From Novosphingobium sp. Gsoil 351 (GTDB lineage: Bacteria > Pseudomonadota > Alphaproteobacteria > Sphingomonadales > Sphingomonadaceae): a DNA stretch of 64,000 nucleotides. Shown piece after piece: positions 10,417 to 60,683 of the stretch. Each line of letters opens with the position of its first letter. Position 1 is the stretch's first letter. The stretch spans positions 2,633,501 through 2,697,500 of the forward strand of contig NZ_CP046120.1 in assembly GCF_009707465.1 (NCBI RefSeq), written 5' to 3'. The translations under genes were made by a program, and so were the position numbers. The notes beneath the pieces were generated by a model, which was not told where the DNA came from, did no database searches, and saw only the letters and a program-made list of their open reading frames with translations.

Positions 10417-12374
10417 TCACCCCGGCTTTTCGTCGACCGTCCGGTACCAGATCATCTCAGACTTCCAGCCTTGCGCCTTGGCGGTCGAGAGGAAGCGGTT
10501 GACCCATGACGGGCTGACTTCGCCCGGCCCTTTTTCGAGCAGCGTCGGGTCGAACGGGCCCTTGCCCTTGAGCAGGAGGATTCCCGACCAGCCCTTGTGA
10601 TCTGTGGTCAGCTTGAAGCTGGTCACCCCGGGGCGCGGGGTGGTGGTGACGAACTGGCCGAGCTCGCTCTTGCTTTTGATCAGCGGGGTGATCGCGCCGG
10701 TCTCCTCCATCCCGAACAAGGCGAAATCGTCGGCGAAGTTGTTGGTGTCGATCTCGATCTCGGGATCGGCGGCGAGCGTGCCGGCCTGGTTGGCCATCTC
10801 GTACTGGCGCTTGGTGGTGTTGAGCCGCGCGCCTTCGTAGTCGCGGACCTGACGGAACGCGTCGATCGGGCTGCAATCGGTCGGCGCGATCGTCTTGACG
10901 TCGGAGAAATCGATGTCGCCCGCCTTCAGCCCGGCCTTCTCGAGCACGAAGCCGACGTCGGCCTTGGCCTTGTCGGGCTTGCCCGAAACCCCGCGCAGCG
11001 CGACGTCGACGGTGGCGTCGCGAGCCTGAACGCTACCCACGTCGAGCCAACTGCAAGGCACGTCACGTAGGCCTGTGGCGAGCGCGGTCTGCGCCGCGCC
11101 CTGCGGATCGCTCGGTCCGCGGCCGAATAGGAAGTAACCCCCGGCAGCCAGCGCCAGCAATACCGCTGCACCGCCGCCTACGAGCAGGCCGGTGTTGCTC
11201 TTCTTCGGGGCCTCAAAACCAGGCTGGAACTGGACACGGGTCGCCTGATCGAAAGCGGCACCCCCACCGCCTTGCGCGGCGACCTCCGCGAGAACCGCGT
11301 CCATCGAGCGCAACCGGTCGGCGGGATCGGGGACGAGCATCTTGGCCAGGATCGGGCGCAGCTGCTCGGGCGCCTCCGAAAGATCGGGCACGTCCTTGCG
11401 CTTGTCGAAGGCGTCGGCGAGGCTTCCGCCCATGTCGACGTCCTTCTTGCGCGCCACCGCCAACATCACCAGCGCGAGGCTGTAGACGTCCGACCAAGCG
11501 CCGACCGAGCGGCCGTATGAGCCCAACTGTTCGGGCGCGACGTAGTTGAGCTTGCCCGCGAACCCGTCGCCGACGATCGTCTTGGCCCCGGCATCGAGAT
11601 CCTTGGCGATGCCAAAGTCGATAATCTTGGCGTCCTTGAGCCTTCCGCCTTCGAGCAACACGTTGTCGGGCGAAATGTCGCGGTGGACCGCGTCGAGCTC
11701 GTGCGCCGCGCCGAGCGCGGCGGCCAGCCGCTTGAGCAGGGTGAGTTGATCCTCGGGAGTGGTATCGAGCGTCTTGAGCACGTCCGAAAGGTTCACCCCA
11801 TCGACAAACTCGGTAACGATGTAGGTCACGCCCAACTGCGGCTCGCGCCCCAGCATGCGATACTGGACCAGGCCCGGGTGGCGCAGCCTTGTGAGGGTCT
11901 TGGCCTCCTTCGAGAACATCGCCTGGACCAGTGGATCGGCGGCGAGATGCGGCAGCATCACCTTGATCGCAACGCGATCGTCCTCGGCGTTGACGTTCAC
12001 GCCTTCGAACACCTCGCCCATCCCACCGCGAGCGATGAATCTGCGGACCTCGTAGGTGTGGTTGAGCACGTCGCCGATCTGGATCCGTCGCGCCTGCTGG
12101 GGCGAGGGCATCGCCTGCGCCGCCGACATCGCGGTGCCCGACGGCGTCGACGACGTCTCGGGCGCAGGCGCGGTGGCGACTGGCTCGACCGGGGGCGGAG
12201 CCGGGCTCGCTTCCGCATCGGCGGGTGCCGCGGCCGGCGCCGCATCGGGCATATCAGCCGGCGCAATAAAGCGGGTGCGATCGTCTTGGCCGGGCGTGGT
12301 CTCGCCGCCGGGTGAGAAGATCGTCGCCTCGTCACCGCCTTGGGTGGGGGGGTATCCTTGTTGTCGTCGCTCAT
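10417..12374 (-). CDS. PpkA-like membrane Ser/Thr protein kinase, frameshifted near start
   Basis: Hanks-type kinase of about 652 residues resembling PpkA of T6SS threonine-phosphorylation pathways. After a Pro/Ala-rich leader come the glycine loop IARGGMGEVFEG, the VAIK lysine, the catalytic loop VHRDISPDNVLL (near 11677), DFGIAKD (near 11615) and VAPEQLG. A single membrane helix (about 11125-11195) precedes a C-terminal region expected in the periplasm. The ATG at 12374 overlaps the phosphatase stop (ATGA) and reads MSDDNKDTP, but the frame shifts within seven G at 12346-12352. One extra G restores MSDDNKDTPPTQGGDEATI. The long upstream open frame is otherwise a phosphatase shadow. Confidence 0.87.
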
Positions 12375-13129
12375 CGGGCGCTCCCCTCACCGGCGAGGAC
12401 CAGCATCGTCGGCTCGCTGGCATAGACCAGCACCACGGTGACGTTGTCGGGCGCGCCGCGCTCGAGGCTGGCCTCGATCAGGTTTTGCGCCCCCGCACTG
12501 CCGTGCTCCGCCAAGATCGCGGCGATCTCGACTTCATCGACCACACCGTGAAGCCCGTCGCTGCACAGCAGGAACAAATCACCCTTTACCACGTGGTCGC
12601 GGATCGCATCGACCTGGAGTTCCGCCTGCACGCCCACGGCGCGCGCGAGAACATGACGCATCGGGTGGTCGGCGGCCTCCTCGGGTGTCAGCATTCCGCG
12701 ATCCATCAGATCCTGGACCTGGCTGTGATCGCGGGTGAGCTGGATCAACTGGCCGTCGCGGAAAAGATAGGCGCGGCTATCGCCCGCCCACATCACCGCG
12801 AATTCGCCATCGCGCACCACCAGCGCGACCACGGTCGAACCCATCATCTTGCCCGCCTCGCGGCTGGTGGCGAAAATCCGCTCGTTGGCGGCGTGGATCG
12901 CATCGCCAAGTGCATCGCACGCCGGTTCGAGGCCTTCGGGTATCGTTGCCGCTCGCGCCGCCTCGACGATAGCCTGGCTGGCGAAGCGGCCATTGTCGTG
13001 CCCGCCCATCCCGTCGGCGACCAGCCATACCTGCTGTTGCGGCAGGCTGGCGTGGCAATCCTCGTTTTCCGCCCGGGCGAGGCCTGTGTCGGTCAGCGAC
13101 ACGTCCTCGATCCGCAATTGTGACGTCAT
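12371..13129 (-). CDS. PP2C-family protein phosphatase (PppA-like)
   Basis: Metal-dependent Ser/Thr phosphatase of 252 residues, expected in the cytoplasm. Motifs include ARAENEDC (metal-site Glu/Asp), VADGMGGHDNG, MGSTVVAL, WAGDSRAYL, LCSDGLHGVV and APDNVTVVLV, which together cover the PP2C core. In T6SS clusters PppA reverses phosphorylation by PpkA. Here the stop overlaps the start of the PpkA-like kinase gene (ATGA) and tagF lies 24 bases upstream, so the kinase, phosphatase and TagF control set is kept in order. Confidence 0.92.
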   Translation of the reverse strand: MTSQLRIEDVSLTDTGLARAENEDCHASLPQQQVWLVADGMGGHDNGRFASQAIVEAARAATIPEGLEPACDALGDAIHAANERIFATSREAGKMMGSTVVALVVRDGEFAVMWAGDSRAYLFRDGQLIQLTRDHSQVQDLMDRGMLTPEEAADHPMRHVLARAVGVQAELQVDAIRDHVVKGDLFLLCSDGLHGVVDEVEIAAILAEHGSAGAQNLIEASLERGAPDNVTVVLVYASEPTMLVLAGEGSAR

Positions 13130-13153
13130 TCGGTGCGCCCCCCAGGGTCTGTC

Positions 13154-13748
13154 TTAGCCGGCAACTTCGAGCATGCGTTCGACCACTCCTTCGGGGAACC
13201 GGCCGGTCATTTCAATCCTTGTGCCATCTTCAGCCTCGATCGCCCAGACCGATTGCGTGGGCGGCGGGTCGGCGGCTTTGTCGGCGACGATCGAGCCGAG
13301 CGCCAGCGCCAGCTGATCGGCATCCCAGCCTTGGCCGAATGTGGTGAAGACCAATTCCGAGCGCGGCGAGCGCAACCTCGCGCGCCGTTTCCGCGCCAGA
13401 GGCCGGGGCGGCGACAAGGATGGGAAAACGCCGCCCGACCTTGTCGACCGACAGGCAAAGCGCGCCCCCGCTCCACGCCCCCGCCCCATCGACATCGACG
13501 AAATACCACGGGGGCGCCTGGACATAACGCGCGTCGAAATCGGTGAAACGGCTTCGCCCTCGGGCCACTTCGGCCGAAAGCCAATCGTCCATCAGCACGT
13601 GCGTGGCGTGATCGATCCCGCGAGAGATGAAATCGCCGTGCGCGGGAATCTTGCCGAATAGCCAGGCTCCCGCGGGTCGAAGCGTTTCACCCAGCGTTTC
13701 CGCCGTCTCGTCGCGCCGCGGCCCGGAAGCGGACGAGAACATCTTCAT
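13154..13748 (-). CDS. tagF: TagF/ImpM-like T6SS regulatory protein, frameshifted
   Basis: TagF is a cytoplasmic negative regulator of type VI secretion. The N-terminal signature AWLFGKIPAHGDFISRGID and LSVDKVGRRFPILVA are typical. The frame breaks after ETAREVALAA near 13357-13372; removing one base joins it to ELVFTTFGQGWDADQLALAL and the C-terminus ERMLEVAG, giving about 197 residues. The ATG at 13748 overlaps the stop of the upstream TssM-like gene (ATGA); a second ATG two codons later is possible. Part of the frame is open into the tssM region, which would create a false TssM-TagF fusion. Confidence 0.83.
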
Positions 13749-15146
13749 CCGGGGGCGCTTGCGCCTGGGGGCGCCACCGTCTGCATGGCCACCTGCGGCA
13801 CGGGCGCGGCGCTCTTCGACGACAAGTAGTTCATCACGATCAGCCCGAGCAGGACCACCGTCACCACGCCGATCCCGATCAGCGAGGTAATCAACTGCTT
13901 GCGCTGAGCCCTCACGCGCCGCGCGTCCGGTCTGAACTAGTCCCGCCTCGCGGAACACCACTTCGCGAAGCAGGCGGTTGAGGAAATAGGTCTTGCCCGA
14001 TTCGCTGGTGGTTTGCGGCTTGGAATAGATTTCCGCCACGCCCGACAGCAGCCGGTCGAGCGGCGCGCCTTCCTGGACCCCGCTTGTGAAGTAGAATCCC
14101 CGCAACGATCCGACGGGCTCGCCCGGTCCGAAGGCGGCGCCGACGAATCGCGCGAGCCGCGAGCGCAGCGAGGCGAGCTGGGCGGGATAGCCCAGGATCA
14201 GGCTGCGGCGGGTGGCATCGCCCTCTTCGCTCAGCCGCTTGGCCTGGCGCGCACCCTGGGCTGAGACGAAGCGGTCGAATGCCGCGACGATCTCGTTCTG
14301 GTCATAGGCCGCGTCGGGGTCCTTCAGCGTCACCCCCAACACCGCGCGGCGCCCCTGCGCATCGAGATCGTCGTAGAACTCGATGAACCCGGCGAGCAGA
14401 TCGACCTTCGTCAGCAGCATGTAGATCGGCACGTTGAGGTCGAGCACGCGCCGCAGTTCGCTCAGGCGGCGGCGGACGTTGGCGGCGTGGCGATCGACTC
14501 CAGCGAGATCGGCCTTGAGTAGTTCATCCACTCCCAACGCGATGATCACCCCGTTGATCGGCTGTTTGGGCCGGTTGGCGCGGAGCTGGCCGAGCAGGCT
14601 GGCCCAGCCCTGCGAATCGGCGGATGCATCGGAATCCTGGCTGGTATAGCGCCCTGCGGTATCGACGATCGCGGCCTCATCGGCGAACCAGAAGTCGAGG
14701 TTGCGGGTGCCGCCGATGCCCTTGAGCGACTGGTCGGAAAACGGGAAGCGCAGCCCCGAGTTGAGCAGCGCGGTGGTCTTGCCCGATCCCGGCGGGCCGA
14801 TGATCACATACCAGGGACGGCTGTAGAGATAGTCGCGCTGGCCACCCGAGGCCGCCTTGAACTGGCCTATCGCCTCGGCCATCCGCTTTTGGACGACAGC
14901 ATCCTCGGCCGCGCCCGAGGCGGTAGCGAGCTGGTTGGCGATGGTATCGTTGGCTTTTTTGGCCTTCATCCGGCGCAGGAGCGCAACCGTCGCCCACGCG
15001 CCCAGGACGATCCCCACGAGCGCCGCGCGGATCGCAACCGCGCCCAGCGCGGGCAGCAGGATCGGGAACCCGAACCAGATCAGGATCGCGACGGCGAAAG
15101 CGAGGAGTCCCGTGACTGCGGTCCAGTTGTTGAGGAAGCCCTTCAC
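13745..15146 (-). CDS. Short TssM/IcmF-like protein ending after third membrane helix
   Basis: Inner-membrane protein with the N-terminal half of TssM/IcmF. Two hydrophobic helices (about residues 8-34 and 36-57) precede a GTPase-like domain with Walker A GPPGSGKTT at 117-125, then FWFADEAAIVDTAGRY and LLTKVDLL. The frame breaks near 13910-13935 (after GLVQTGRA); dropping one base restores RAQRKQLITSLIGIGV and a third helix, then a 25-residue tail to the TGA at 13745, about 466 residues in all. Family members usually exceed 1100 residues with a large periplasmic domain, which is absent here. Its stop overlaps the tagF start and its ATG overlaps the tssL stop, so the short end looks genuine. 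Confidence 0.85.
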
Positions 15147-16051
15147 GCCCCGCCTCCCATCACGCGCAGCAGCGCATAGACCGCCAGCACCAGCACCAGC
15201 GCCCCGGCTGCGGCCAGCGCTATCACCGGCCCGCTCCCCACTTTACCCAGCGGGGCGTCGAACCCGACCCATTGCGGCGAGACGAAACGCTGCGAGAGCG
15301 CCTTGATGTGATCGATCCCGGCATAAATCCGCCCGGTTAGATCGTTCAACTGCGCCCGCCCATTGTCGGCGGTGCGGAACTTGCCCTGGTATCCCGCCGC
15401 GATGCAGGCGTGGGCCAGCTCGATGATGTCGGCGTTGTCCTCGGGTTCCTTCAGCGCGGTCTCGATCTCCTTCCAGATCGTCTCCTCGTCGCGGCTGGCG
15501 CCGTATTCGGCGGAAAGCGACGGGCCAGTCCATGGCATCGCGCCATCGAGATTGGGCAGGTTGGTGGCGATGTCGTCGATCGTTGCGGCGAGTAGGGCGC
15601 GCGCCGTCCGTCTGGTTTCGTCGGGATAGAGCGGGGTGATCGCGCGGTCGTAGGCGAGTAGGGCGTCGCTGGCGGCGCGTTGGAAATCGGGCATCGCGAT
15701 GCGGGCGCGGCCCGAGCGGACGCTCGCCGCCAAGGCCAGGACCGGCCCCGCCTCTGTCGCCAGCGGTGCGCGCAGCTCGCGCGGGGTCGCGGGTACGGGA
15801 AAGCCTTCGTCGCTCAGCCGCGGCCCGGTCGGGCGGGGCGGCGGCGGGGCGGCGGCAGGGGGAGGTGGCGTGAAGTTCGGTGCGGGTTGGGCCGGCTCTG
15901 CCTGGCGCGCGGCCGCTTCGGGCGTCGGCGCGACAGGCGGCGGGGCGGCGGGTGCCGCGGGCTGAAATTGAGTTTGAAGCCCGGCCAGCGGCGACGGCCG
16001 GAATACCGTCCGGTTGCCGCCAGCAGAGGGGTCGTCTTCGCCGCCGCTCAT
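15143..16051 (-). CDS. TssL/DotU-like inner-membrane protein
   Basis: T6SS-type DotU/TssL protein of 302 residues. It starts MSGGEDDPSAGGNRTVFRPSP, a typical extended TssL N-terminus, followed by a Pro/Ala-rich linker to about residue 95, a cytoplasmic helical domain (PDFQRAASDALLAYDRAITP, then ELAHACIAAGYQGKFR) and one C-terminal membrane helix (ALAAAGALVLVLAVYALL). There is no OmpA-like peptidoglycan domain. ATG 16051 has an AAAGGAA ribosome site. In secretion systems TssL binds TssM; here its gene overlaps the short tssM by ATGA. Confidence 0.87.
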   Translation of the reverse strand: MSGGEDDPSAGGNRTVFRPSPLAGLQTQFQPAAPAAPPPVAPTPEAAARQAEPAQPAPNFTPPPPAAAPPPPRPTGPRLSDEGFPVPATPRELRAPLATEAGPVLALAASVRSGRARIAMPDFQRAASDALLAYDRAITPLYPDETRRTARALLAATIDDIATNLPNLDGAMPWTGPSLSAEYGASRDEETIWKEIETALKEPEDNADIIELAHACIAAGYQGKFRTADNGRAQLNDLTGRIYAGIDHIKALSQRFVSPQWVGFDAPLGKVGSGPVIALAAAGALVLVLAVYALLRVMGGGA

Positions 16052-16092: not shown

Positions 16093-16328
16093 CGACCCGG
16101 CAGCCCGGCATCTGACGTGCCGGTTGTCATGGACGAGGCAAGCCCGAACGGCGCATTGACGGCACCGGCGGGCGGCGCAGCGCAGCTTCGTTCCGGACAT
16201 GGCGACAGGACACCCCTGTCATCCCCCGCGCAATGCGTTTAAGCACAGCTTCCGCCAATCCGAAAGGCGCGTTATGGTGTCGCCGGCGTCCTTTTTGGAG
16301 CGCCTCGGGCAGGGGACCGCGACAGCCG

Positions 16329-16574
16329 ATGGGGCCAAACGATTCGTTCGACCCGCGCACCTGGAAAACGGGCGATCCCGCTGCTGGCGGAGCGCCCGTA
16401 ACCGCGCTGAGCCCCGCACCGCCAGTGCCCAAACCGCAACCCGATGCAGGACCGGCTTCGCGCAGGTGGCTGGGGCTGGCGCTGAGTGTGGCGATCCTTC
16501 TGGCCGGCGCCATGGCGGCCTACGTGACCCGCGGCGATGAACCGGCCCAGGCTCCAGTCGCGTCAGCGCGATGA
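16329..16574 (+). CDS. Small single-pass membrane protein, unknown
   Basis: An 81-residue open frame starting MGPNDSFDPRTWKTGD with a Pro/Ala-rich stretch and one membrane helix (LGLALSVAILLAGAMAAYV), ending VASAR. The layout predicts a cytoplasmic N-terminus. AGGGG lies about a dozen bases before the ATG. It is divergent from tssL (277-base gap) and its end overlaps the CPBP protease end by 12 bases. I do not recognise a family. It could be a component of the adjacent TssL/TssM module or a spurious frame. Confidence 0.5.
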   Translation: MGPNDSFDPRTWKTGDPAAGGAPVTALSPAPPVPKPQPDAGPASRRWLGLALSVAILLAGAMAAYVTRGDEPAQAPVASAR

Positions 16575-17426
16575 CGATTCCACGGAAGCCATTCGTCGGC
16601 TGAACGCTGGCAGCAGCGGGATGATCAAAGCGGCCAGAACCAAGGTCATCGCGATACTGGCGTTAAGTCCTTCGTCCGAGCCGCCCCACATCCTTAGTCC
16701 GGTCAGATCGAAGTTCGTCAACGCTCCAAGCTCGTCCACGCCGGGGTTGGGGTCCAGCCCGAACCCAATCGATTCGCTGGCATTCCAGGCGAAATGCGCG
16801 GCCATGGGCGCCACGATGCCGCCGCTGCGCTCCGCCAGCAGCCCGAACCACAGTCCCCCCAGCATGAGGTTGGCCAGACTGACCACATCCGCGGTCGCCC
16901 CGCCCGCCCACCAGTGAAACCCCGAGAAGGCTATGGCCGAAAGCAGGACGGCCAGCGACGAGCCGAGCATGTCCTGGACCGCCCCCAGCAACCAGCCCCG
17001 GAACAGAAACTCCTCGGCCGCCACACCGAGCAGAACGATCGCAGCGCTGAGGATCAGGTGATGCTCCGCCGTCGGTTCGATTGGCACCTGATGCAAGCTC
17101 GCGTTGAGCCAGGCATAAATCACACAGGTCGTCAGTCCGCCCGCTCCGATCGCCAGACCTAGAGCAAGCCACCCGAGCGGGCTTTCCCCGGCGCGCAGCA
17201 CCTGGTGCCTCCCAAGAAGGCCGAGCAAAAGACTCAACAGGATCAACGGCGCGAACAAGATGAGATAGAACAACACGTTCGCGGCGATCATCGAATCGAC
17301 CGTGATCCTTTCGCCAATCGCGTCACGGACCGGTTCGGCCACCGTGAACAGCGCCGCGCCGATGCCGAAGACGATCATCGCCCAATCGGCGATTGCGGAT
17401 CGTGGCTGTGCCTCTTGTCCGACCAA
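16563..17426 (-). CDS. CPBP-family intramembrane metalloprotease
   Basis: CAAX-protease/bacteriocin-processing (CPBP, Abi) family integral membrane protease of 287 residues with about eight hydrophobic helices. Motif 1 is AAEEFLFRGWLLG (the EExxxR metal/catalytic motif), motif 2 is FSGFHWWAGG, and motif 3 is HFAWNASES. It starts 24 bases after the CHAT protease gene on the same strand and may share its transcript. Family members prenyl-process proteins or act in peptide maturation and immunity; the substrate here is unknown. Confidence 0.88.
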   Translation of the reverse strand: MVGQEAQPRSAIADWAMIVFGIGAALFTVAEPVRDAIGERITVDSMIAANVLFYLILFAPLILLSLLLGLLGRHQVLRAGESPLGWLALGLAIGAGGLTTCVIYAWLNASLHQVPIEPTAEHHLILSAAIVLLGVAAEEFLFRGWLLGAVQDMLGSSLAVLLSAIAFSGFHWWAGGATADVVSLANLMLGGLWFGLLAERSGGIVAPMAAHFAWNASESIGFGLDPNPGVDELGALTNFDLTGLRMWGGSDEGLNASIAMTLVLAALIIPLLPAFSRRMASVESSSR

Positions 17427-17450: not shown

Positions 17451-20400
17451 CTACCGGCTCGCCGCAGTGCCGGCCTGTCCCAGCAACTGCGCCTGCGCCT
17501 GGCCTGAGATCAGCGATTTGTTGGCATCGCCGACGACGAAGAACGCGCCCCAATAGATCGGGTGCGAACTTGCCCGCTGGTTCATGATCGCGAGCTGCGC
17601 GCTTTGCAACGCGTCGCCGATCGTGCCGCCCCGCGCGGCGCGATAGAAGTCCTCGATCAGCGCCTCGCTCTCGCCCTCGTCCGAGATCGGCCAGTAGGTG
17701 GTCAGAACCGCGCGGGCGTTGGCGGCCAGGAACGCGCGGACCAAGCCTTCGAGAGTATTGCCCGCTTCCTCCTGCCCGGCGGCGCGGGCTTCGGCCTGGC
17801 TGACCCCGCTGGCGGTCTCGCACGCCGAGAGCACGACCAGATTGGCGTCGAGCCTCAGCCGCGCGATTTCGTTGAAGCTGAGGATCCCGTCGGAACCGGC
17901 GTCGCCCATGCTTGTGACCAGCGCGGGAGGCGATTTGGCGCAGCCCCACTGACCTTCGGTTAGCCCGTGCGTTGCGAAGTGGAGCACCTGGAACTGGTCG
18001 AGATCGCTGCGTTTGAGCACCGCACTGTCGCTGAACGCAGCGTCGGTCAGCATCGGCGTTTCGCGCAGCCCCAGGGCATTCCCCGCGCGGACCAGCTCAC
18101 TCTTGTCGATCGGTGCCAGCTCGCGGCTGAGCGCTGCGATGGTCTTGAGTTCGACCTGGCAGCCGCTGCCTACGCTGACCATCGTCCCCGCTGCCTGCCC
18201 GGTCATCGGGATCGGCATGTGCTCGGCAAAGCCCATGAACGGCAGCGGAGCGTTCGAGGCCGGGAGGCCCCTGGAGACCAGCAGCGAACGAGGGCTCAGC
18301 GCGGAGGACAGCGTCACGCGCCGGGCGAGGAAGTTTGTCCGGGTGTAATCGTAAGGATCTCGCGCACGAGTTGCTTTGAAATCATCGACGCTCGCCTGGT
18401 CGGTGACCAAGACGCCCAGCGGCAGCCGCTCGAGCGGGCCCGAGGGATCGACGATCAGCGATTTGGCACCTAGCATCCGGTTCTCGACCGGCCCCGCGAC
18501 CAGCTGGAACAGCGCTCGCGCCGCGCCCACATCGAAGATAGGCAGCTTGTCATAGCCGCCGTCGATCGACGCGCGAGTCCGGTTGGCCAGCGCGTCGATC
18601 GTCGCGTTGTTGCGGGCGACCCGATATATCTGCGCGCCGTCGGCATCGATGAGGATGCCGAACGCATAGTTGCGCACCTCTGTCAGCTTGAAGAACGCTT
18701 CCCCCGGCCGCAGCACCTTGGTGATATCCGCGACCGTCACCGGGGTGTCGTCGACCGCGCTGAACGAAGAGTTGGCCTGAAGCTCGCCGTCGATCTGGAC
18801 CAGGCGGCCCTCCAGCGCCTCGCGCTTCTCGTCGAGGCCCTTGGCAAGACCCGCCTGATCGTTGGGGATCGCCGCGATCTGATAGCGCAGCTTGGTGATC
18901 TCGCGCTCGACCTCGTCGCGGTCCTGGACTTTGGCGGCGAGCGCGCCATTGGCGGTGACCACCGACTGGAGCTGGACGAACTGCCGCGCCACTGCCGGAT
19001 CGCCAACCGACTGGATCGCGCGGAAGAACTTCTCTGCGGCCTCGGGCGATCTGGTCCGCCGCGATTCGGAGACGAGCAGATCGAGGTACTGCTCGAGCGC
19101 GGGGGGCAGCAGCGAACCGGCCGCGTTGGACGAGACCAGCGCGTCGACCGCCTTGTCGAACTCCGCCATGACTTCTTCGCGCGGGCGCCCTGCCTGCGAA
19201 GCCATCCCTGCGCGCTCGAGCCGCGTCTCCGCCAGGCTCGGCCCGAAAGTCACTGCTTCGCTTCCCGCGCCTTCGAGATTGCTGACCGCCATGTCGAGCG
19301 CGGCAAGCGCTTCTGGATAACGCTTGTCCTGCGCGAGCAGCCGGGCGCGCTGGCGCTGGACCCGCGCGACCAGCCAGGCGACCTGCTGCTGATCGATCTG
19401 CTCGCCCTTGAGCGCGGCGATGCTGCGATCGGCGGCGTCGAGCGCGGCGATGGCTTCTGGTTTCTGCCCTTGAGCGAGCAACGCGACGCTGCGCGCCCAA
19501 TTGGCCTGGGCATCGATCACCAACTGCGACAGCGAGGCGATGTCGGGGGTGGAGACCAGTCCGTTGCGGCGGTTTCCGGCCATCATCTGATTGATCATCC
19601 GCACCGTGGTCGGGTCGGTCAGCGGCTGGCTGGGGTCCATCGGCGCCGAGGCAAGCCGGTCGAGCGCGGCCACCGCGTTGGCGAAGTTGCGGCGGTTGAG
19701 CAGATCGAGCGCGCCGTAACTGTTGCGCTTGCGGACGAGGACTTCCGCGCCCGGCAGGGTGGGATTGGCGGCGAGCAGTTGATCCGCGCGATCGAAGTAG
19801 TTCTGCGCGGAATCGAAGAACCGCAAGTTGGAATCGGCAAGGCCCGCGACCAGCAGCAATTCGATGCGCTCGGCTATGGGGGCGTCGGCGGGCAAGCGGC
19901 TGATCGCGTCGTTGAGCGAGCGGCTGGCCTCCATGTGGAGCCCTTGGCGGATCAGCCGCAGCCCCTGCTGCAACGCGCTCTCGCTGTCCGCGGCGAGCGT
20001 GTTCGCGCCCATTTCCATCGGCGCGGGGGCGAGCGAGGCGAACTCGACGCCCGGCGCCGCGGTGCGGTTGCGATCCGGATTGACCTTGCTAGCCCCGGTC
20101 AGCAGCCGCAGCGCCTCTTCGCCCGGACCCTGCGCGGACGGAATTACGCTCAAGCTGAAGCGGCGCCCGTCGCGTTCCGCCACGGTCTCGATCGTCTGGA
20201 AGCCGAGCAGGCTGTCGAAACAGCGCCGCGCGCGGACCGTGCCGACTTCGGCGACGCGGGCATCGGCCGGGGCGCCGCACTGCAATGCCGCCTCGATCCG
20301 CGCCACATCGGCATCGCGCACCGCGCGGATCACGCCCAGATAGCGGTTCGCGGTCGCCCCGCGGCAGGTGATCGCATAGCTATCGGAAAAGTGGTCGGTG

Positions 20401-20591
20401 ACCGAAGGGTCGTCCCAGTACCGCGTCGCCAGGCACGGCTCGCCCCGCGAATCGCGACCCAGTTCGAAGGTATCGGGTGCGTTCGGGCGCTTGGCCCATG
20501 CCGGGGCGGTCCCACCCGAAAGCGCCACCAGCGGCAACACCGCCAACATCGCCAAGCGCAGCGCGCGGCTTGCTGTGGAAGGCGCGGTCAT
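17451..20591 (-). CDS. Exported CHAT-domain caspase-like protease with TPR-like repeats
   Basis: A 1046-residue predicted exported protein. A signal peptide (about 33 residues, ending TAPAWA) leads into a roughly 600-residue helical region with TPR-like segments (for example YPEALAALDMAVSNLEGAG). The C-terminal CHAT domain has the His/Cys dyad: LHFATHGL with His875 and VLSACETASG with Cys924, plus the family ending YWGAFFVVGD. CHAT proteases are separase/caspase-clan peptidases. The start overlaps the stop of the giant exoprotein gene (ATGA), so a role in processing or controlling that exoprotein is likely but unproven. The catalytic pair appears intact. Confidence 0.93.
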   Translation of the reverse strand: MTAPSTASRALRLAMLAVLPLVALSGGTAPAWAKRPNAPDTFELGRDSRGEPCLATRYWDDPSVTDHFSDSYAITCRGATANRYLGVIRAVRDADVARIEAALQCGAPADARVAEVGTVRARRCFDSLLGFQTIETVAERDGRRFSLSVIPSAQGPGEEALRLLTGASKVNPDRNRTAAPGVEFASLAPAPMEMGANTLAADSESALQQGLRLIRQGLHMEASRSLNDAISRLPADAPIAERIELLLVAGLADSNLRFFDSAQNYFDRADQLLAANPTLPGAEVLVRKRNSYGALDLLNRRNFANAVAALDRLASAPMDPSQPLTDPTTVRMINQMMAGNRRNGLVSTPDIASLSQLVIDAQANWARSVALLAQGQKPEAIAALDAADRSIAALKGEQIDQQQVAWLVARVQRQRARLLAQDKRYPEALAALDMAVSNLEGAGSEAVTFGPSLAETRLERAGMASQAGRPREEVMAEFDKAVDALVSSNAAGSLLPPALEQYLDLLVSESRRTRSPEAAEKFFRAIQSVGDPAVARQFVQLQSVVTANGALAAKVQDRDEVEREITKLRYQIAAIPNDQAGLAKGLDEKREALEGRLVQIDGELQANSSFSAVDDTPVTVADITKVLRPGEAFFKLTEVRNYAFGILIDADGAQIYRVARNNATIDALANRTRASIDGGYDKLPIFDVGAARALFQLVAGPVENRMLGAKSLIVDPSGPLERLPLGVLVTDQASVDDFKATRARDPYDYTRTNFLARRVTLSSALSPRSLLVSRGLPASNAPLPFMGFAEHMPIPMTGQAAGTMVSVGSGCQVELKTIAALSRELAPIDKSELVRAGNALGLRETPMLTDAAFSDSAVLKRSDLDQFQVLHFATHGLTEGQWGCAKSPPALVTSMGDAGSDGILSFNEIARLRLDANLVVLSACETASGVSQAEARAAGQEEAGNTLEGLVRAFLAANARAVLTTYWPISDEGESEALIEDFYRAARGGTIGDALQSAQLAIMNQRASSHPIYWGAFFVVGDANKSLISGQAQAQLLGQAGTAASR

Positions 20592-23500
20592 GGGGCTCTG
20601 TCCTCGGATTTGGCGGCGCAATCGCCTTCCTTGTCGGGGTCGCACTCGATCGTCTGCAAGGGAAGATCGCTCAGCCCGAACGAGCCGACGTCGCCGAACA
20701 GCGATTCGTTGTTGGTCCCCACCACCGGATCGAAGGGAATGGAGAAATCGCCCTGGGTGCTGAAGATGTCGCCGCGGAACGCGTTGAGCGGGGGCAGCGG
20801 CGGCGAGCTGGTCGTGCTGGCGATGCAGCCCGACCCCGACCCGATGAGACAGCCGTTGATCCGCGCGCTGATCCGGTCGACCGCGTTCAAAGTGATAATC
20901 TGGTCGCCGAGAACCGCGGCGGCTGAATCCGGAACGCCGTTGATCGTCCCGAACAACGCAAACCCGCCCGCGTTAGGTGGGTTTGGACCCTGGAGGAAAA
21001 GCGCCGGGCTGGACGGACTGGCGGTCGAAGCCAGTACCGCGCCCGAATTGATCGCCGACCCGCCGGTGTTCTGGAACAGCGCGTAATCGGAATACCGCAC
21101 CGTCACGCTGCTCGCCGACAAGATCGTCGGCGAGGTATAGACCGCCGCGCCAAATGCATCCGCGACGTAGAGCGTCGAGGAACCCCGCGCGACGTAGTCG
21201 GTGGCCACGGTCGCGGGTGCCGCGGGCGATCCGCCAGGCGTCAGCCCCAACGTAGCGAGGAAGCTGGCGTCGAGGCCCATCCCGATGCGGTCGGCCCGCA
21301 GATCGAGCGCCAGCCCCGGCACCAGAACCCGCCCGCCGGCGTCGGCAGTGGTGGCGAAGCGCATTGTCGTGGCGCGCGCGGTGGGCGACGCCGAACCGCC
21401 CAGGCGAAGCGTGCGCGTCCCGGTGGCGCTCGCCGAGATCGTCCCGGTGACGTCGAACCGCTGGAGTCCGAGCACGTCGATCCGGGTCGCTCCGGTATCG
21501 GCATCGAGCGCGAGCGTGCCGATCGCCACGTCCTGCCTGGCGCCTGCGCCAGTTCCGGCATCGAGGATCACGGTGGCGGCGTTGAGCCGGTTGATCTCCG
21601 CCTGGCTCAGCGCGAAGCCGCTGCTGCCGATCGCCCCGTCGCCCAATCGCAGCGGGCTGGCCCCGGTCGCGCGGTCGATCACGGTGATCTGGGTGGCGGC
21701 AACTGCCCCGTTGATGTCGGCATCGCTGGCGCTGAGCGTCACGTTGCGTCCCGTGGCGGTGACCGGACCCAGCGTAGCGCGGGTCGCCGCCGCCAGAGTG
21801 ATGTCGCCGCCGGAGACCGCCGAACCCAGCGTCAGACTCGATCCGGTGGCGTTGAGGTTTAGAGTGGTGCCCGTGGTCACCGCACCCGCCGTGATCGCCC
21901 CCGCCGTGACCGCCGCGCTCGTTCCCGCCGCCAGGCTTCCGAGATTGGCCGTAGTCCCGCCGTTGATCGTCACGCTCGCCGCTGTCGCGGTGGTCGCGCC
22001 GGTGACGCCAAGCGACCCGCCGTTGACGATCACCGAGCGGGCGGCGGTGATGTTTGCACCGTTGATCGCTCCGCTCGCGTTGAGGACGACGTCGTGCCCG
22101 AGGTTGGTCGCGGTGATGTCGGTGAAGCTCAACGGGCCCGCGGTCACCGCGATGTCGACCGTGCTCGCGTTCGAAACCGGATCGGCCCCGCGCGCAGCGT
22201 TGCCCGCGCTGATCGCTTCGCCCGCTGCGAATTCGGTGGTCGCGCGCGCGGTCAGGCTCGCGCCATCGACCTTGCCCACGGTGATGCCGTTGGCGGTTAG
22301 CCGCACGTCGCTTTCGCGACCGGCGGTGCTTCCACCGGTCAACTGCGAATTGGCGAGCACGATATTGCCGCTGGCCGCCGAGACGGTGAGCGTTTCGGTG
22401 TTGTTCGCCGCCGTGCGGTCGGCATTGGCGACGAGCGTGAGGCGCCCGGCGCCCTTGGCGACATCGCCGCTGGTCGCGGTGACGGCGGCGTTGCCAGTGG
22501 CCGCCTGCGTCCGTGCCGAACCGTCGCCGAGCGTCACGCCCGTCCCGCCGGTCACGGTGTAGTTGCCGCCCGCCGTCACGTTCTGCTGGATCGCAGCGGT
22601 CGTACCCGCGCTGATGGTGGTGTTCGCACCAGTGGTAACGTCGCCGACGAGTTGCGAGGACGTGCCCGAGGCTACTGCGACGTTGCCGGCGGTCGCGGTG
22701 GTGCTTCCGAGCAGCGCCACGCTGGTGCCGGCGGCTACGGTGACATCGCTCGCTGCGGTGAGCGCCGCGCTGGCGATGACGTTCGCGCCGCTCGAATTGA
22801 TGACGATGTCTCCGCCCGCGTTGGTCTCTGCCGCGTAGGCCGCGTCGAGCGCCGCCGCGCCGAAGGTTACGGTGCGCGTGTCCGGGCCGGTGCCTGAAGC
22901 GTTCACCGCTCCGCCGGTGGTGATTGTCCCTTGTCCGGCGAGCAACACGTCGTCGCCCGCGGTGGTGGCGCCGGTAATGGCGACGCTCGCGGTGTTCGAT
23001 TTGAGCGCGATGTCCTCGCCCGCGCTGGCGCTGCCGATGGCGATGGCGTTGCCTGCCCGTCCGACCAGACTGCCGCCCGCACTCAGCGTGGCGGCGGTCA
23101 GGCCGGTTGCAGCTCGGATGTCGATGTCATGACCGGTGCCGATGGCGTTAACGGCGCCGACCGTGACCGAGCCGCCGGTAGAGACCAGATCGACCGACTG
23201 GCCCTGCGCCAGGTCGCCTAGATCGGCCGCGCCGTTCCCCGCATCGATGGTATCGGCGACAATGTTGCCGCCTGCACTGACCAGCGCGCGGTCGGCGTCG
23301 ATGTCGTCGGCGGTTACCGCACCCGACGCCGAAAGGCCCACGTCGCTCTCGCGCCCGGCAATGCTGCCGCCGGTAAGCTGCGAGTTGGCCAGCACGATGC
23401 TGCCCGCGTTGGCAGTGATGCTCAGCGCCTCGGTTCCGGTGACGTCGCTGTTGCCGATCACCGTCAGGCGGCCCGAACCTTGCGCCACGTTGCCGCTGGT

Positions 23501-26500
23501 CGCGGTGATCGTCACCGCGCCCTTGGCCGCCTGCGTCCGCGCCGACGCATCGCCGAGCGTGACCCCCGTCCCGCCGGTGACGGTGTAGTTGCCGCCCGCG
23601 GTGACGTTCTGCTGAACCGCCGCGGTGGTGCCCGCGGTGACCGTGCTGTTCACGCCGCTGGTGACGTCGCCGACCAGTTGCGCGGAGGTACCCGAAGTCA
23701 CCGCCACATTGCCCGCGGTCGCGGTGGTGGCGCCGAGCAGAGCCACGCTGGTGCTGGCGTTGATCGTCACATCGCTCGCCGCACTTAGGGCGCCGCTGGC
23801 GATCACGTTGGCAGTCGTGGAACGGATCACAATGTCCGCGCCGGGATTGCTCTCGGCGGGGAAGGCGATTGCGGTGGGCGAGGCGAAGTCGACCGTCCGA
23901 GTGTCCGGACCGACCCCACGCGCAATGGCCGCCGCGACCGTGACCGCGCCCGCACCAGTCACCAGCACGTCATCGCCCGCATCCATCGCGCCCAGCGAGG
24001 CATTGCGCCCGGCCGAAACACCAATGTCCTCGACCGCGGTCAGCGCGCCGGTCGAGGCGTCGCGGCGCGCGCGGGCGCCAAGGCTGCCAGCGCTGCCCAC
24101 GGTCGTCAGGGTCAGGTCGTTCGCGGCATCGATCCGGGTATCGCCGCCTCCGGCAAGTGCGCCGCTGACGATGTTGCCGCTGTCGCCGCCGCCGCTGACG
24201 TTGCTGACGAGCATGGTAGTTCCGGCGGACGCGCTGCCGATCAGGATGTCGCCGTCGTGCGCCGCATCGCCCAGCGGAGCGATTCCGGTGGCGGTTAGCG
24301 CGAGCGCACCTCCGGCTTGCGCGGTGGTCAGGTCGATCGAACCATCGCTGGTGGCGGTCCCGGCGGCGACGGTCAGGCTGGTGCCCGCATTGGCGGTGCC
24401 AAGCTGGGCGAGCCCGCCAGCGGCCGCGCCGATCGCGCCAGTGGCGGTGACGTTCGCGCGCCCGAACGCGCTGTTGCTGGTGCCCGTAGATGCCCCTGCC
24501 AGTCCAGTGAGATCGGCGGGCGTCGCCAGAGTCACCGTGCCACCGGAACCGAGCGCGCCGAGGCGGATGTGAGTCGAACTTGTCAGCGTTGCGCTGCCGG
24601 CGGAAGTGGCGCTGCGTGCGCGCAGCTCGTCTCCCGCAGTCGCCGCGGCACCGCCCGATTTGGTCAGGCTCAGCGCACCGCCGAGCGAGGTCATCAGGAT
24701 CGAGAGCGTGCCCGTGGTTGCCGTGATCGTCGCGGTGCCGTTGGCCGAGGTCAGCGAATCCGCCACTGCCGCAGCGGTGCCGAGATTGAGCGTGGTGCCG
24801 AAAGCGACGTCGCTGAGTTGCGCCGCGCCCCCGATCGTCCCCGAGATCGCGGTGCCGGCGCCGAGGTCGGTCTTGCTAAAGCTCGCGTCGAACGCTTCGG
24901 GCGCGCCCGCGGCGTCGAGCGCCACGAGAGGGATCGCGGCGGTCGGCTGCCCGGTGAGCACCACCGTCAGGTCGCCGGCGCCGCTCAGCAGCCCGACGTA
25001 ATAGTTGTCCGCGGTCAACGCCGCGCCCGAGGTGTCGTTGAGCGTGATGGTGCCGGTATTGGTGGCGAGCGTGCCGATCGCCAGCTGATCGGCGTTGATC
25101 GTGATGTTGCGGTCGGCAACGATCCGATTGAGCGTGACCACGTCGAGCAGCGGGGTTGCCGCCAGCCCCGAACGGATGGTGACGTCGCCACCCGCACCGG
25201 TGGCGAAGATCGCCCCGCCGACGACGTTGGTTCCGGTCGGCGCGCCGCCGCTCAGCGGCGAGCCGGTGAGGGACCCGGCGATGTTGAGCGCCAGCGATCC
25301 GCCCGCGGTCAGGCTGTCGAACCGCGCGTCGCCGTCCGAATTGATCGTTAGGTTGCCGGTGGTGCTGAGCGCGGCGACCCCGCGCTGGGTCGTCGGCAGC
25401 GTGTTCTCGCCCCCGCCGATGCCATAGACCGAGCCTTGAGCATCGATCGCGACGTCGCCGCCGTTCGACCGGATCAGCCCGGTATCCGCCGCGGAATTGT
25501 AGGCCGCCAGCAGCACATCGTCGCCCGAATCGAGAGAAATGTTGCCTGCGGCGGTTAGCTTGGCCGCGATCGTGATGTCGCCGCCGGTGCTGGTGAGCGT
25601 GGCGGTCGTCCCGGCGCCGCCAGTGCCCAGGGCGATCGCCCCGCCGGTCGCGGTGATAGCCAGCGCGCCGCCGGTCGCGGTGACGGTGCCCGCGGTCACG
25701 CTCGCCCCGGTCAGCGTCGCGCTGGTCCCCGCGGTTACCGTCGTCGCGTCGAGCGCGGTCCCCGCGGTAAGCGCGGTGCTGGTGCCCGAAGTCACGCTGG
25801 CGAGCAGCGCGCTGGTGCCCGCGTTGGCGATGACGTTGCCGCTGCCCGCGCTGAGGTTCGCGCGCCCGCCGCCGGTGCCGCTGAGCGCGCCGGTGGCGGT
25901 TACGCTCAGGGTGCCGGCGGTCGCGGCGGCGTTGGCGATCCGCGCGTTGGTGGAAGACCCGATCGTCGTGCCGGTGGCCCCGGTGACCGAGCCATTTACG
26001 GCCAGTTCGCCGCTGACGCCGGTTTTGATCAGCGTCGCCGTGGCTCCGGCGCTGCCGGTGCCCAGCGTAAGGTTGCCGACATCGGCGCGCAAATCGATCA
26101 GTCCGACCGCGGTCGCGCTGTCCACGCTCACCACGTCGCCGCTGACGACGATGTCCGATCCAGCGCCGCTGGCGGAGACCGGGCCGAGCCGCGCCAGCGT
26201 TCCCGAGGTAACGGTGACGTCGCCGCCGGTTCCCGAAAGGTTGGCGTTGCCCGTGCCGATGCCGGTAACCTCGCCCGAGGTTGCGGCAACGGCGATCGAG
26301 GCCGCTGTCAGCGCGCCGATCCGCGCGTTGCCAGACGAGGTGATCGAGGCCGCGCCGGTGGCGGTCGCGTCGGTGATCGTGGTGTCGCCGCCATCGATCG
26401 TCAGCGAAGCGAGCGGCGCGGTGCCACCGGCGGTGCCGAGCAACGTCACTGGCCCGGCGGTCGTGATCGCCAGAGCCACTGCGCCGTTGGTCGTGCCGGC

Positions 26501-29500
26501 AAGCGTGATCGCCCCGCCGCCGGTGCTGGTCAGCGTGGTCGCCACGCCGAGCGTAACCGCGTCGTTGTAGGCCTGCGCCCCGGTGGTGCGCACCGTCCCG
26601 CCGTTGATCGCGGTGGTACCGCCCGCATCGGTGGTTAGCGAAGCCAGAGCCGCGCCGCTGCCGACCACCCCCCGAAAGTGGTGGCCGCGGAGGTGTTCAC
26701 GGTCAGGGCGCGTGCGGTCGTGTCGCTGTCGACCGTCGTGGCGAAGCCGATGTTGCCGCCCGCGCTCAGCGTGGTGTCCGCGCTCAGGACCACGGCGTCG
26801 TTGTAGGTTTGCGCGCCGCTGGTGATGACGGTGCCGCCGTTGAGGTCGGTCGTCCCGGCCGCGTCGGTGGTCAGCGAGGCCAGTGCGGTACCCGCTCCAA
26901 CCGTGCCGAGGAACGTGGTTATGCCAGCGGTATTTACCGCAAGGGCTTGCGCTCCGTTCACGGTCGAGCCGAGCGTGATCGCCCCGCTGCCGGTGCTAGT
27001 CAGGGTGGTCCCTGCGCCGAGCGTGACCGCGTCGTTGTAGCTCTGCGCGCCGGTGGTGGTGATCGCGCCGCCATTGATAGCGGTGCTTCCCGCGCCATCG
27101 GTGGTCAGCGACACAAGCGCATCGGTTCCGCCGACCGCGCCGCCGAACGAGGTGATCCCTGCGGTGTTGACCGTCAGCGACCGCGCGCCGTCGAGCGTGG
27201 TGGCGAAGGCGATGTTGCCGGTGGCGGTGCTGGTCAGGACGGTGGTCGCGCCCAGCGTGACCGCGTCGTTGTAGCTCTGCGCGCCGGTGGTGTTGATCGC
27301 ACCGCCATTGATCGCGGTGGAACCGCCTGCGTTGGTGGTGAGCGAAGCGAGCGCCGTGCCTGCACCGACCGCGCCGCCGAACGAAGTGGTTCCTGCGGTG
27401 TTGGCCGTCAGCGCCTGCGCGCCGTCGAGCGTAGTGGCGAAGGCGATGTTGCCGGTGGCGCTGCTGGTCAGGATGGTGGTCGCGCCGAGCGTGACCGCGT
27501 CGTTGTAGCTCTGCGCGCCGGTGGTGTTGACCGCACCGCCATTGATCGCGGTGGAACCGCCTGCGTTGGTGGTGAGCGAAGCGAGCGCCGTGCCTGCACC
27601 GACCGCGCCGCCGAACGAAGTGGTTCCTGCGGTGTTGGCCGTCAGCGCCTGCGCGCCGTCGAGCGTAGTGGCGAAGGCGATGTTGCCGCTGCCGGTGCTG
27701 GTCAGGATGGCATTCGCGCCCAGCGTGACCGCATCGTTGTAGCTCTGCGCGCCGGTGGTGGTGACCGCGCCGCCATTGATCGCGGTGGACCCGCCTGCGT
27801 TGGTGGTGAGCGAGGTGAGGGCAGTCGTCCCACCGACCGCGCCGCCGAACGAAGTGATCCCGCTTGTGTTGACCGTCAGCGCCTGCGCGCCGTCGAGCGT
27901 AGTGGCGAAGGCGATGTTGCCGGTGGCGCTGCTGGTCAGGATGGTGGTCGCGCCGAGCGTGACCGCGTCGTTGTAGCTCTGCGCGCCGGTGGTGGTGACC
28001 GCGCCGCCATTGATCGCGGTGGAACCGCCTGCGTTGGTCGTCAGCGAGGCGAGCGCGGTGGTCGCGCCGACCGCGCCAATGAAGGTCGTTGCGCCGGTGG
28101 TGTTGACCGTTAGCGCCCCACCACCGTCCACTGCCGAGCCGAGCGTGATCGCCCCGCCGCCGGTGCTGGTCAGCGTGGTCGCCACGCCGAGCGTAACCGC
28201 GTCGTTGTAGGCCTGCGCCCCGGTGGTGCGCACCGTCCCGCCGTTGATCGCGGTGGTACCGCCCGCATCGGTGGTTAGCGAAGCCAGAGCCGCGCCGCTG
28301 CCGACCACCCCCCGAAAGTGGTGGCCGCGGAGGTGTTCACGGTCAGGGCGCGTGCGGTCGTGTCGCTGTCGACCGTCGTGGCGAAGCCGATGTTGCCGCC
28401 CGCGCTCAGCGTGGTGTCCGCGCTCAGGACCACGGCGTCGTTGTAGGTTTGCGCGCCGCTGGTGATGACGGTGCCGCCGTTGAGGTCGGTCGTCCCGGCC
28501 GCGTCGGTGGTCAGCGAGGCCAGTGCGGTACCCGCTCCAACCGTGCCGAGGAACGTGGTTATGCCAGCGGTATTTACCGCAAGGGCTTGCGCTCCGTTCA
28601 CGGTCGAGCCGAGCGTGATCGCCCCGCTGCCGGTGCTGGTCAGGGTGGTCCCTGCGCCGAGCGTGACCGCGTCGTTGTAGCTCTGCGCGCCGGTGGTGTT
28701 GATCGCGCCGCCATTGATAGCGGTGCTTCCCGCGCCATCGGTGGTCAGCGACACAAGCGCATCGGTTCCGCCGACCGGGCCGCCGAACGAGGTGATCCCT
28801 GCGGTGTTGACCGTCAGCGACCGCGCGCCGTCGAGCGTGGTGGCGAAGGCGATGTTGCCGGTGGCGGTGCTGGTCAGGACGGTGGTCGCGCCCAGCGTGA
28901 CCGCGTCGTTGTAGCTCTGCGCGCCGGTGGTGTTGATCGCACCGCCATTGATCGCGGTGGAACCGCCTGCGTTGGTGGTGAGCGAAGCGAGCGCCGTGCC
29001 TGCACCGACCGCGCCGCCGAACGAAGTGGTTCCTGCGGTGTTGGCCGTCAGCGCCTGCGCGCCGTCGAGCGTCGCGACGAAGGCGATGTTGCCGGTGGCG
29101 CCCACGCCGCTGCTCGCCAGCGTGGTCGCGCCGAGCAAGCTGACGATGTCGTTGTAGGTTTGGGTGCCGCTGGTCGAGATCGTCCCGCTCAGCGTCGTGG
29201 CTCCGCCGTTGCCGGTGGCGAGGTTGCGGACTCCGGTGAAACCGCTGTCGAGCGTGGTCGTCCCGCCGAAGTCGAGCGTGAGATCGAAGCCATTGCCGAT
29301 GAGACCCATCGCGAAGCTGCCGCTGCCGCCGGTCAGCGTGGTGTTCGCGCCAAGGCTCACCTGGTCGCCAAAGCTCTGCGCCCCGCTGGTGGTGATCGCG
29401 CCGCCATTGATCGCGGTGGTCCCCCCCGTGTTTGTAGTCAGCGAAGTCAGCGCGATGCCAGCGCCGACCGCGCCGGAGAAGGTGGTCGTCCCGGTGGTGT

Positions 29501-32500: not shown

Positions 32501-33706
32501 GTTCCCGCTGCTGGCCAAGGTGAGGTCACCGCCCAGGGTGATCGCGCCCCCAGAGACGCCGATAGCACCGCCCGCACTCTGGGTAACAGCACTCGCACCG
32601 CCAAGCGTGATCGCAGTGCCGCTGACGGTGTAGTCGCCCGCTGCGCTGACCGAGCCCGAGATGGTCGCGGCGTCGGTCGAGGCGACCGTAACGAACCCGT
32701 TCAGGCCAGTCGCGCTCAGCGACCCAGCGCTGACTATCGCAGAACCTGCCGCAGGGGCTCCCGTGCTGGTCGTCTTCAAGAGGATGCCACCATTATCGGC
32801 GGACGCGGTGAGGGTGGCAGCGCCATCGACGTTGAGCAGTGAACTGATGATGGCAGTCGCATTGGCCCCGACCAGCGCGACCGAACCGCCGCCCACTGTG
32901 CCGGTGGCAAGCACGTGGACGCCGCTGAGCGTCGTGCCGGTGGTGATCGTAAAGTCGAGCGGACTGCCGACACCGCTGTTGAAGGTCACGTCCTGCGCGG
33001 CGACAAGCGCGGTATCGCCGCTAGCCGAGATCGAGCCGGCGACCGATATTTCCTGCGCGACGAGGACGATGCTGCCGTTGGTCGCGCTGAGCCCGTAAGG
33101 TCCACCCATCGCTGCGGGCGCGCCAAGGACGATTTTCTCGGCCGAAGTGCCGGCTAGATTGATGCTCCCGCCGTCGAGGAAGTCGGTGTCGGTGACTCCC
33201 AGCGTAGTCATCACCAGGCTGCCGCCGTTGAAAGCGCCGGTCGGCCCGAAGGTGATCCCCGCCGGGTTGCTTAGGTAGACCGCGATGTTTGACTTGCCGT
33301 TCAGGGTTCCGTCGATCAGCGACCTGTAGATCGTCGGTGTCATCGCGCCATCGACGCCGGTGACCCGATTTAGCACCCCGATCGCTGCGGTGCCCGGTGT
33401 AGTGAAATCGACTTGGTTGCCGGCCGCGACGTTGAACGTCTGCCAGTTTATCACGCGCGATTGATCGTTGAGGTTTACACTGAGTTGCGTAGGGTTCGGG
33501 GTCGGCGATGGTGTGACGGACGTAGGCAATCCGAGTGGCCCGGTCGTGTCGGAAAAACTCGCTCCCTGCGTGCCGCTTAGCACTGGCAGCGTGTCGGTCA
33601 TGCTTTGCGCTCGGGCCGCAGTCCCCCCGCCGAACGTCGCCAACGTCGTGGCCAGCGCGGTGCTGAGCTGGAGGGCTCCGGTCCGGCGAATGCGGGCGAC
33701 GGTCAT
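20588..33706 (-). CDS. Giant two-partner secretion exoprotein (filamentous hemagglutinin-like), three frameshifts
   Basis: TpsA-type exoprotein of about 4373 residues once three bases are restored. The N-terminus has a signal peptide (ends AARAQS) and a TPS secretion domain with RVINWQTFNVAAGNQVDF and SNPAGITFG. The bulk is Gly/Thr/Ala-rich repeats typical of a right-handed beta-helix; many are 78-residue units. The C-terminus has two C-x7-C pairs (near 20820-20860 and 20605-20640). The frame is broken at six-C runs 26668-26673, 28308-28313 and 30653-30658; adding one C to each restores it, and the corrected length is a multiple of three. It lies 25 bases after the TpsB gene and overlaps the CHAT gene start. 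Confidence 0.9.
26506..27460 (-). repeat. Long near-identical duplication, copy 1
   Basis: About 950 bases from 26506 match 28146-29100 almost exactly at an offset of 1640 bases, with only a few scattered substitutions in the parts compared. The match includes the same frame-breaking CCCCCC run. It ends where the second copy diverges (CGTAGTGGCG against CGTCGCGACG). This is within the exoprotein coding region. Confidence 0.85.
26822..28222 (-). repeat. Tandem 234-bp repeats in the exoprotein gene
   Basis: Units recur at an exact 234-base spacing (27053, 27287, 27521, 27755, 27989, 28223), preceded by a 231-base variant from 26822. Each encodes 78 residues of the form SLTTNAGGSTAINGG, TTGAQSYNDAVTLGA, GNIAFATTLDGAQALT. 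The units are nearly identical, so they expand or shrink easily and are hard to assemble. They also explain the series of 73-codon antisense open frames on the plus strand, which are not genes. Confidence 0.9.
28146..29100 (-). repeat. Long near-identical duplication, copy 2
   Basis: Second copy of the segment at 26506-27460, offset 1640 bases. Differences include GTGCTGGTC against GTGCTAGTC near 28637 and GACCGGGCC against GACCGCGCC near 28775. High identity over this length suggests recent duplication or gene conversion inside the exoprotein gene. Confidence 0.85.
31881..32380 (-). repeat. Third partial copy of the duplicated segment, in frame
   Basis: About 500 bases match 26601-27100 at an offset of 5280 bases. 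At the frameshift site this copy reads GACCGCCCCGCCGAAAG, one base longer than GACCACCCCCCGAAAG in the other two copies, and stays in frame. It is thus an internal control for the missing base in the others. Confidence 0.85.
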
Positions 33707-33731
33707 GGCAGCATTCCTTCGCGATACGGCA

Positions 33732-35468: not shown

Positions 35469-35583
35469 CGAATCCCCCATCGCGCCGCCCGGGCGTGTGT
35501 CGAAATCGGCGCGTACGATGCCTTCGTGGCAAGGCACGACCGGCAACCCTGAACATTGTTTTGATTGGCTGCCTGATTGGAAC

Positions 35584-60612: not shown

Positions 60613-60654
60613 GGCGATGCCGGGCGGTTAGCCGAGGAGGCCGGGAGATGAAAG

Positions 60655-60683
60655 CTATCCTCTCCCCTCGCGGGAGAGGATAG
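60655..60683. repeat. Perfect 12-bp-stem palindrome between argS and lipoprotein gene
   Basis: CTATCCTCTCCC (60655-60666) pairs with GGGAGAGGATAG (60672-60683) around loop CTCGC. The following bases up to about 60820 contain further small hairpins (GTTCC/GGAAC at 60692-60703) and a second CCTCTCCC arm. This composite element fills the 213-base gap; I see no gene inside. It is related to the element at 44433. Confidence 0.75.

Follow-up and report, generated by a model that had tools for sequence, protein, structure and literature searches.

Why would a bacterium keep the regulators and part of the membrane complex of a type VI secretion system (T6SS) at a site where no secretion machine is found? 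The question is raised by a 64,000-nucleotide stretch of Novosphingobium sp. Gsoil 351 (hereafter the window; NZ_CP046120.1, G000:C1:2633501-2697500), which lies within a single-contig genome of 3,818,329 bases with a completeness of 99.46% and a contamination estimate of 2.79. Five adjacent genes on its minus strand encode short forms of TssL and TssM, together with TagF, a phosphatase and a kinase. We consider it fairly probable that this cassette is a T6SS-derived threonine-phosphorylation switch that was retained for another output after the machine was lost. A fuller version of this reading is, in our judgment, evenly poised between right and wrong. In it, T6SS parts would make up a signalling system that stands on its own: the phosphorylation switch, together with the membrane complex's cytoplasmic half, would have been cut twice independently from the weapon by loss of the TssL and TssM periplasmic domains, and would now use TagH to pass an envelope signal, which may be one of attack or damage, to a new output.

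Each of the five identities proposed by an initial annotation of this DNA is borne out by Pfam matches. The tssL/dotU gene (15143..16051, minus strand, as are all window features given with coordinates below) encodes a cytoplasmic DotU domain and a membrane helix with no OmpA domain (PF09850, 93 bits). It is followed by tssM/icmF (13745..15146), encoding two helices, an NTPase domain with the motif GPPGSGKTT, a third helix and a short tail (PF14331, 229 bits), and by tagF (13154..13748; TagF_N, PF09867, 74 bits), the copy of which in the related locus L018 scores 81 bits with TIGR03373 (cut-off 41). A PppA-like PP2C phosphatase (12371..13129; PF13672 (PP2C_2), 50 bits, and PF00481, 47 bits) and a PpkA-like membrane Ser/Thr kinase (10417..12374; Pkinase, PF00069, 106 bits) complete the cassette, with a convergent tatC downstream of the kinase gene. 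The annotation had also described ATGA overlaps at all junctions other than a 24-nucleotide gap between tagF and the phosphatase gene. The gap and the overlaps at TssM/TagF and PP2C/kinase are as described, but the TssL/TssM overlap is GTGA, the window's tssM starting with GTG and not ATG; in L018 this overlap is ATGA.

The window's genome was searched throughout for TssC, TssK and Hcp without a match, each search having a positive Escherichia coli control, and no VgrG gene was found beside the cassette on reading the locus, the genome as a whole not having been searched for VgrG. The earlier claim of T6SS parts without a T6SS is thus upheld for the core genes searched for. The survey of other sphingomonads that had been proposed with it points the same way, as the cassette recurs in four further genomes in which TssC found no match, G348 (96% complete), G303 (68%), G508 (100%) and G548 (99%); TssC was detected in two control genomes of the family. 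It might be argued that a working T6SS is present in the window's genome and was missed or left unassembled, given the contamination estimate and a machine search that covered TssC, TssK and Hcp, with VgrG, ClpV, TssB, TssE, TssF, TssG and TssA not searched for. We regard this as extremely improbable: the nearly complete assembly is one contig, three independent core families are absent from it while the controls are positive, the four further genomes are likewise TssC-negative, and the TssL and TssM encoded in the window are without parts that a T6SS uses.

Those missing parts are the periplasmic ones. TssM is about 1150 amino acids long elsewhere and about 470 in the window's lineage. In L018 the open tssM gene encodes 471 amino acids, overlaps tagF and ends about 30 residues (by eye) past the third membrane helix; its product covers positions 4-465 of the 1168 of TIGR03348, short of what defines a full T6SS membrane complex. 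In the window's TssM, Pfam finds only the N-terminal domain, PF14331, and the periplasmic domains are absent. Short TssM proteins of 444-479 amino acids make up at least 28 clusters (P0123-P0150, 69-91% identity) among the best 120 of 469 TssM relatives, and include that of the isolate Novosphingobium tardum. The short TssL ends just past its membrane helix, whereas relatives in T6SS loci carry OmpA. Among the best 120 of 306 TssL relatives, no OmpA domain is found in 98 (P0003-P0100, 52-100% identity, the window's protein included; 10 of these are gene calls that start late), and all 22 in P0101-P0122 (43-48% identity) have one.

IcmF and DotU also occur without a T6SS sheath in type IVB secretion. 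The window's TssL passes the NCBIfam cut-off for IcmH/DotU of type IVB systems (57.4 against 50) and misses that for DotU/TssL (80.9 against 89.95), as would be expected if TssL and TssM were accessory proteins of another exporter. However, with the T6SS model the TssM of L018 reaches 434.4 bits, against 73.9 with the IVB model (dot/icm genes were not searched for), a tree places the short TssM within T6SS TssM, and the protein is accompanied by kinase, phosphatase, TagF and TagH, which sets the window apart from the IVB case. An accessory role in another exporter is therefore very unlikely.

The genes around TssM indicate where the cassette came from. Scanning genome contigs with the N-terminal part of TssM gave 68 loci, and a TssK gene was found in 63 of them. 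The five misses are L018 and L019, which are of the short type and are the window's two nearest relatives, and L038, L047 and L050, in each of which the contig runs out a little way upstream. In L024 the genes run in the order CHAT, CAAX protease, M23 peptidase, TssK, TssL with OmpA, TssM (1154 amino acids, four Pfam domains), TagF, PP2C and kinase, TagH, VgrG. In genome G371 (locus L205) the T6SS continues with a ClpB/ClpV-type ATPase, TssG, TssF, TssE (gp25), TssC, TssA and an OmpA-family protein carrying the motif VCQLTGDC, and VgrG and TagH lie opposite this gene run. Complete T6SS loci of Novosphingobium, Sphingomonas and Caulobacter such as these are direct relatives of the window's locus, sharing its order from CHAT and CAAX protease through to the kinase; they differ from it in holding TssK, full TssM, TssL with OmpA, VgrG (L024), and a ClpV-type ATPase with TssA, TssC, TssE, TssF and TssG (G371). 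Since this order lies within a T6SS locus in most relatives, the window's gene order is inherited from such a locus. Sequence comparison shows that this former T6SS locus shed TssK, its sheath and tube genes and the periplasmic domains of both membrane proteins, TssL and TssM; the machine genes tested were TssC, TssK and Hcp. The initial annotation had overlooked this ancestry, as well as the trimming of both membrane proteins, the retention of TagH and the apparent second occurrence of the reduction.

That second occurrence was seen at the level of the family, where the TssM N-domain matched at 29 places in 26 of 397 genomes. At 25 of these places the open frame is at least 894 amino acids; the others are the window's own genome, a 105-residue fragment in G505, and open frames of 554 amino acids in G508 (Sphingomonas crocodyli) and 537 in G548, two genomes that belong to another genus than the window's. 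The N-terminal part of the G508 TssM is identical to that of P0158 among the listed TssM relatives. The G508 and G548 loci each hold a CAAX protease, TssL without OmpA, TssM of 462 amino acids, TagF, PP2C and kinase; TssK, TagH and VgrG are all missing from the 20 kb read at either. CHAT and exoprotein genes are found at the G508 locus; neither was seen in the 20-kb stretch of G548. A tree built from 40 TssM N-domains nests the 11 rows of Novosphingobium short forms inside the Novosphingobium T6SS clade (support 100/100) and places the three rows of the S. crocodyli group elsewhere (support 100/100). A single clade for both short-form groups was rejected by the approximately unbiased test (p = 0.00118, a value weakened because the groups were picked after a first tree). 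From these sequences, the same reduction of TssL and TssM appears to have occurred independently in a second sphingomonad lineage. The apparent repetition of the cut suggests that the switch has another job.

Is the cassette simply debris, what is left of a vanished T6SS before it too is deleted? Besides the disappearance of the TssC, TssK and Hcp genes, the state of the window's own copy could be taken to say so, as reading frames change in tssM (near 13.9 kb), in tagF (near 13.35 kb) and at the kinase start (near 12.35 kb), and the exoprotein gene upstream is split into four open reading frames. Yet the N-terminal domain of argS (58859..60700, minus strand) likewise falls in two reading frames in this assembly. 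As argS is essential, indel or assembly error is the likely cause of the frame breaks in the cassette as well. In L018 both tssM and tagF are intact, and in L018, L154 and L155 the genes are open, with no damage to the kinase, phosphatase or Walker A motifs. Ratios of nonsynonymous to synonymous substitution (dN/dS, Nei-Gojobori) between the window and L018 are low: 0.15 for TssL, 0.10 for TssM codons 1-400, 0.05 for PP2C, 0.14 for the kinase and 0.29 for the N-terminal part of TagF, with 0.08 and 0.15 for the neighbouring CHAT and CAAX genes. The five cassette genes give 0.04-0.12 between L154 and L155, and a pair with a full T6SS, L024 and L030, gives 0.045-0.24 with dS above 1. For TagH the values are 0.096 (L194-L195), 0.15 (L194-L196), 0.21 (L195-L196) and 0.096 (L197-L198). 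These values point to purifying selection on the cassette genes and on TagH. Given this, and given that two separate clades still carry this set of genes and that TssM is kept at 444-479 amino acids in at least 28 clusters, we think debris unlikely.

TagH shows that the unit exceeds five genes. In the window's genome TagH (TIGR03354, 282.8 against an NCBIfam cut-off of 120.25; PF20232 also matched) and two OmpA-family genes are separated from the cassette by about 178 kb. Of 195 genomes of the genus, 31 have DotU, 28 have TssC and 27 have both. The genomes with DotU and without TssC are the window's own, G348 and G303, all of the short type, and G338 (67% complete, with a long TssL frame); G343 has TssC without DotU. 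TagH (PF20232) is found in 34 of the 195, namely 30 of the 31 DotU genomes (the miss being G338) and G201, G299, G324 and G343. It is also present in G508, on another contig than the cassette, and in G548, about 45 kb from it, so that all five short-type genomes searched keep TagH and none has TssC. In G303, and very probably in G348, TagH adjoins the kinase gene, with a tetratricopeptide repeat (TPR)-like gene between. This TPR-like protein of about 550 amino acids (L196:886-2580 in G303; L195:10173-11828 in G348) was matched neither in the window nor in the compared T6SS loci, nor by any NCBIfam model. An OmpA-family protein with the motif VCQLSGxC is divergent from TagH in the window's genome, G348, G303 and G508; in G548 none was seen next to TagH. 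A tandem pair of OmpA-family genes bearing the motif VCQLSxxC adjoins tagH in the window's genome (L194:10278-12038), G348 and G303, with a homologue in the G371 T6SS locus. In G343, the TssC is a piece at a contig end, besides which the genome has a T6SS FHA C-terminal domain. On the evidence of sequence, what has been retained is the kinase and the phosphatase with TagF and TagH/Fha, together with the cytoplasmic portions of TssL and TssM and an OmpA-family protein of the periplasm.

How might such a set work? In Agrobacterium tumefaciens, PpkA phosphorylates TssL at Thr14, Fha binds Thr14 and TssM changes conformation, according to PMC3953482; TagF binds Fha (PMC5995506). The window's module resembles this pathway in its PpkA/PppA/TagF/Fha set, the membrane helix of the kinase and the Thr-bearing TssL N-terminus; it differs in having no sheath, tube, TssK, TssL OmpA domain or TssM periplasmic domains. 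The N-terminus of the window's TssL carries the motif NRTVFRPSPL with Thr15. Among the listed relatives, [RK]T[VI]F[RK]PSPL stands at this end in 88 of the 98 short forms, the other 10 being the late-start calls, and in 22 of 22 OmpA-type proteins. Of 70 loci examined, 48 yielded a kinase, and in 45 of these a similar T[VI]FxP motif stands ahead of the kinase domain. The predicted periplasmic domain of the kinase (10420..11121) gave a confident AlphaFold2 model (mean pLDDT 91.9) and shows Cys, Trp and Gly columns that do not vary in a 43-sequence alignment; a search for its relatives gave no informative one.

We propose that the kinase senses an envelope signal through this domain, its presumed input, and phosphorylates Thr15 of TssL and perhaps also its own N-terminal T[VI]FxP motif. 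TagH would then bind phosphothreonine on the TssL-TssM platform, whereupon the TssM NTPase would change state; TagF would hold TagH back and PP2C would reset the switch. The output would no longer be the needle, and would most likely be TagH-dependent control of other proteins or genes. There is a precedent in Vibrio cholerae, where, according to PMC8993066, the Fha reader TagH acts outside the T6SS through its phosphopeptide-binding residues, regulating a protein that is not part of it, an effect that mutants of tssB or tssM do not reproduce; V. cholerae differs in still having a T6SS. Of the stand-alone, envelope-sensing phospho-switch that had been suggested earlier, the persistence of T6SS parts without a T6SS is supported by the searches made; "envelope-sensing" and "stand-alone" describe a function that stays conjectural, even though the kinase has a periplasmic domain.

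Several points speak against a retained switch, among them the restricted machine search and the weakened test of independent origin. Three of the five cassette genes change frame in the window's assembly. The dN/dS values for the window against L019 and for L018 against L019 (four genes each) are somewhat higher, at 0.16-0.24. The Thr14 region, as reported in PMC3953482, is conserved in Agrobacterium and Rhizobium and not in distant TssL, so that the motif match in the window's TssL is a resemblance and should be taken as a lead only. Finally, four genomes of the genus (G201, G299, G324 and G343) have TagH without a DotU match, which indicates that TagH can exist without TssL.

Upstream of the cassette and in the same direction lie a CPBP/CAAX-type intramembrane protease (16563..17426; PF02517, 60 bits), kept in all five short-type loci read; an exported CHAT-domain protein (17451..20591; PF12770, 140 bits) with a signal-peptide-like start; a two-partner-secretion exoprotein (20588..33706; PF05860, 57 bits in the first of its four open reading frames); and its ShlB-type outer-membrane transporter (33732..35546; PF03865, 36 bits). 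The CHAT and exoprotein genes are candidate associates, and CHAT, exoprotein and transporter (17451-35546) adjoin the T6SS locus in many sphingomonads. A sigma-54-like promoter match (16242..16258), a pattern match to the consensus and weak evidence, lies about 190 nucleotides upstream of tssL; its bases are identical in L018 and L019. The exoprotein, CHAT and CPBP genes could be one target of the switch. Taken further, switch and neighbours would be one unit that now controls the exoprotein and the exported CHAT protein. The CHAT orthologue (at least 398 bits) is found in 23 of the 195 genus genomes, all of them among the 31 with DotU, while other copies score at most 327 bits (the threshold was chosen after this gap was seen, and at most 4 candidates were scored per genome). 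CHAT also adjoins the cassette in both T6SS-positive and T6SS-negative loci. However, 8 of the 31 DotU genomes are without the CHAT orthologue, the G548 cassette has neither CHAT nor exoprotein in the 20 kb read (the rest of that genome was not searched for them), and adjacency does not equal function. We hold such a unit to be possible but doubtful, although less so than debris.

The module is best described as a variant of a known regulatory pathway, a reduced T6SS-derived phospho-switch that is not a T6SS and that was apparently reached twice. The literature consulted mostly treats these regulators as triggers of the weapon. If the weapon has been dropped and the trigger kept under purifying selection, the TssL-TssM-TagH switch would do something of its own, perhaps also in T6SS-positive bacteria. 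In both TssL and TssM, the short forms set the signalling half apart from the channel half, and the bacteria that carry them may offer a natural background in which the output of the switch can be studied without the machine.

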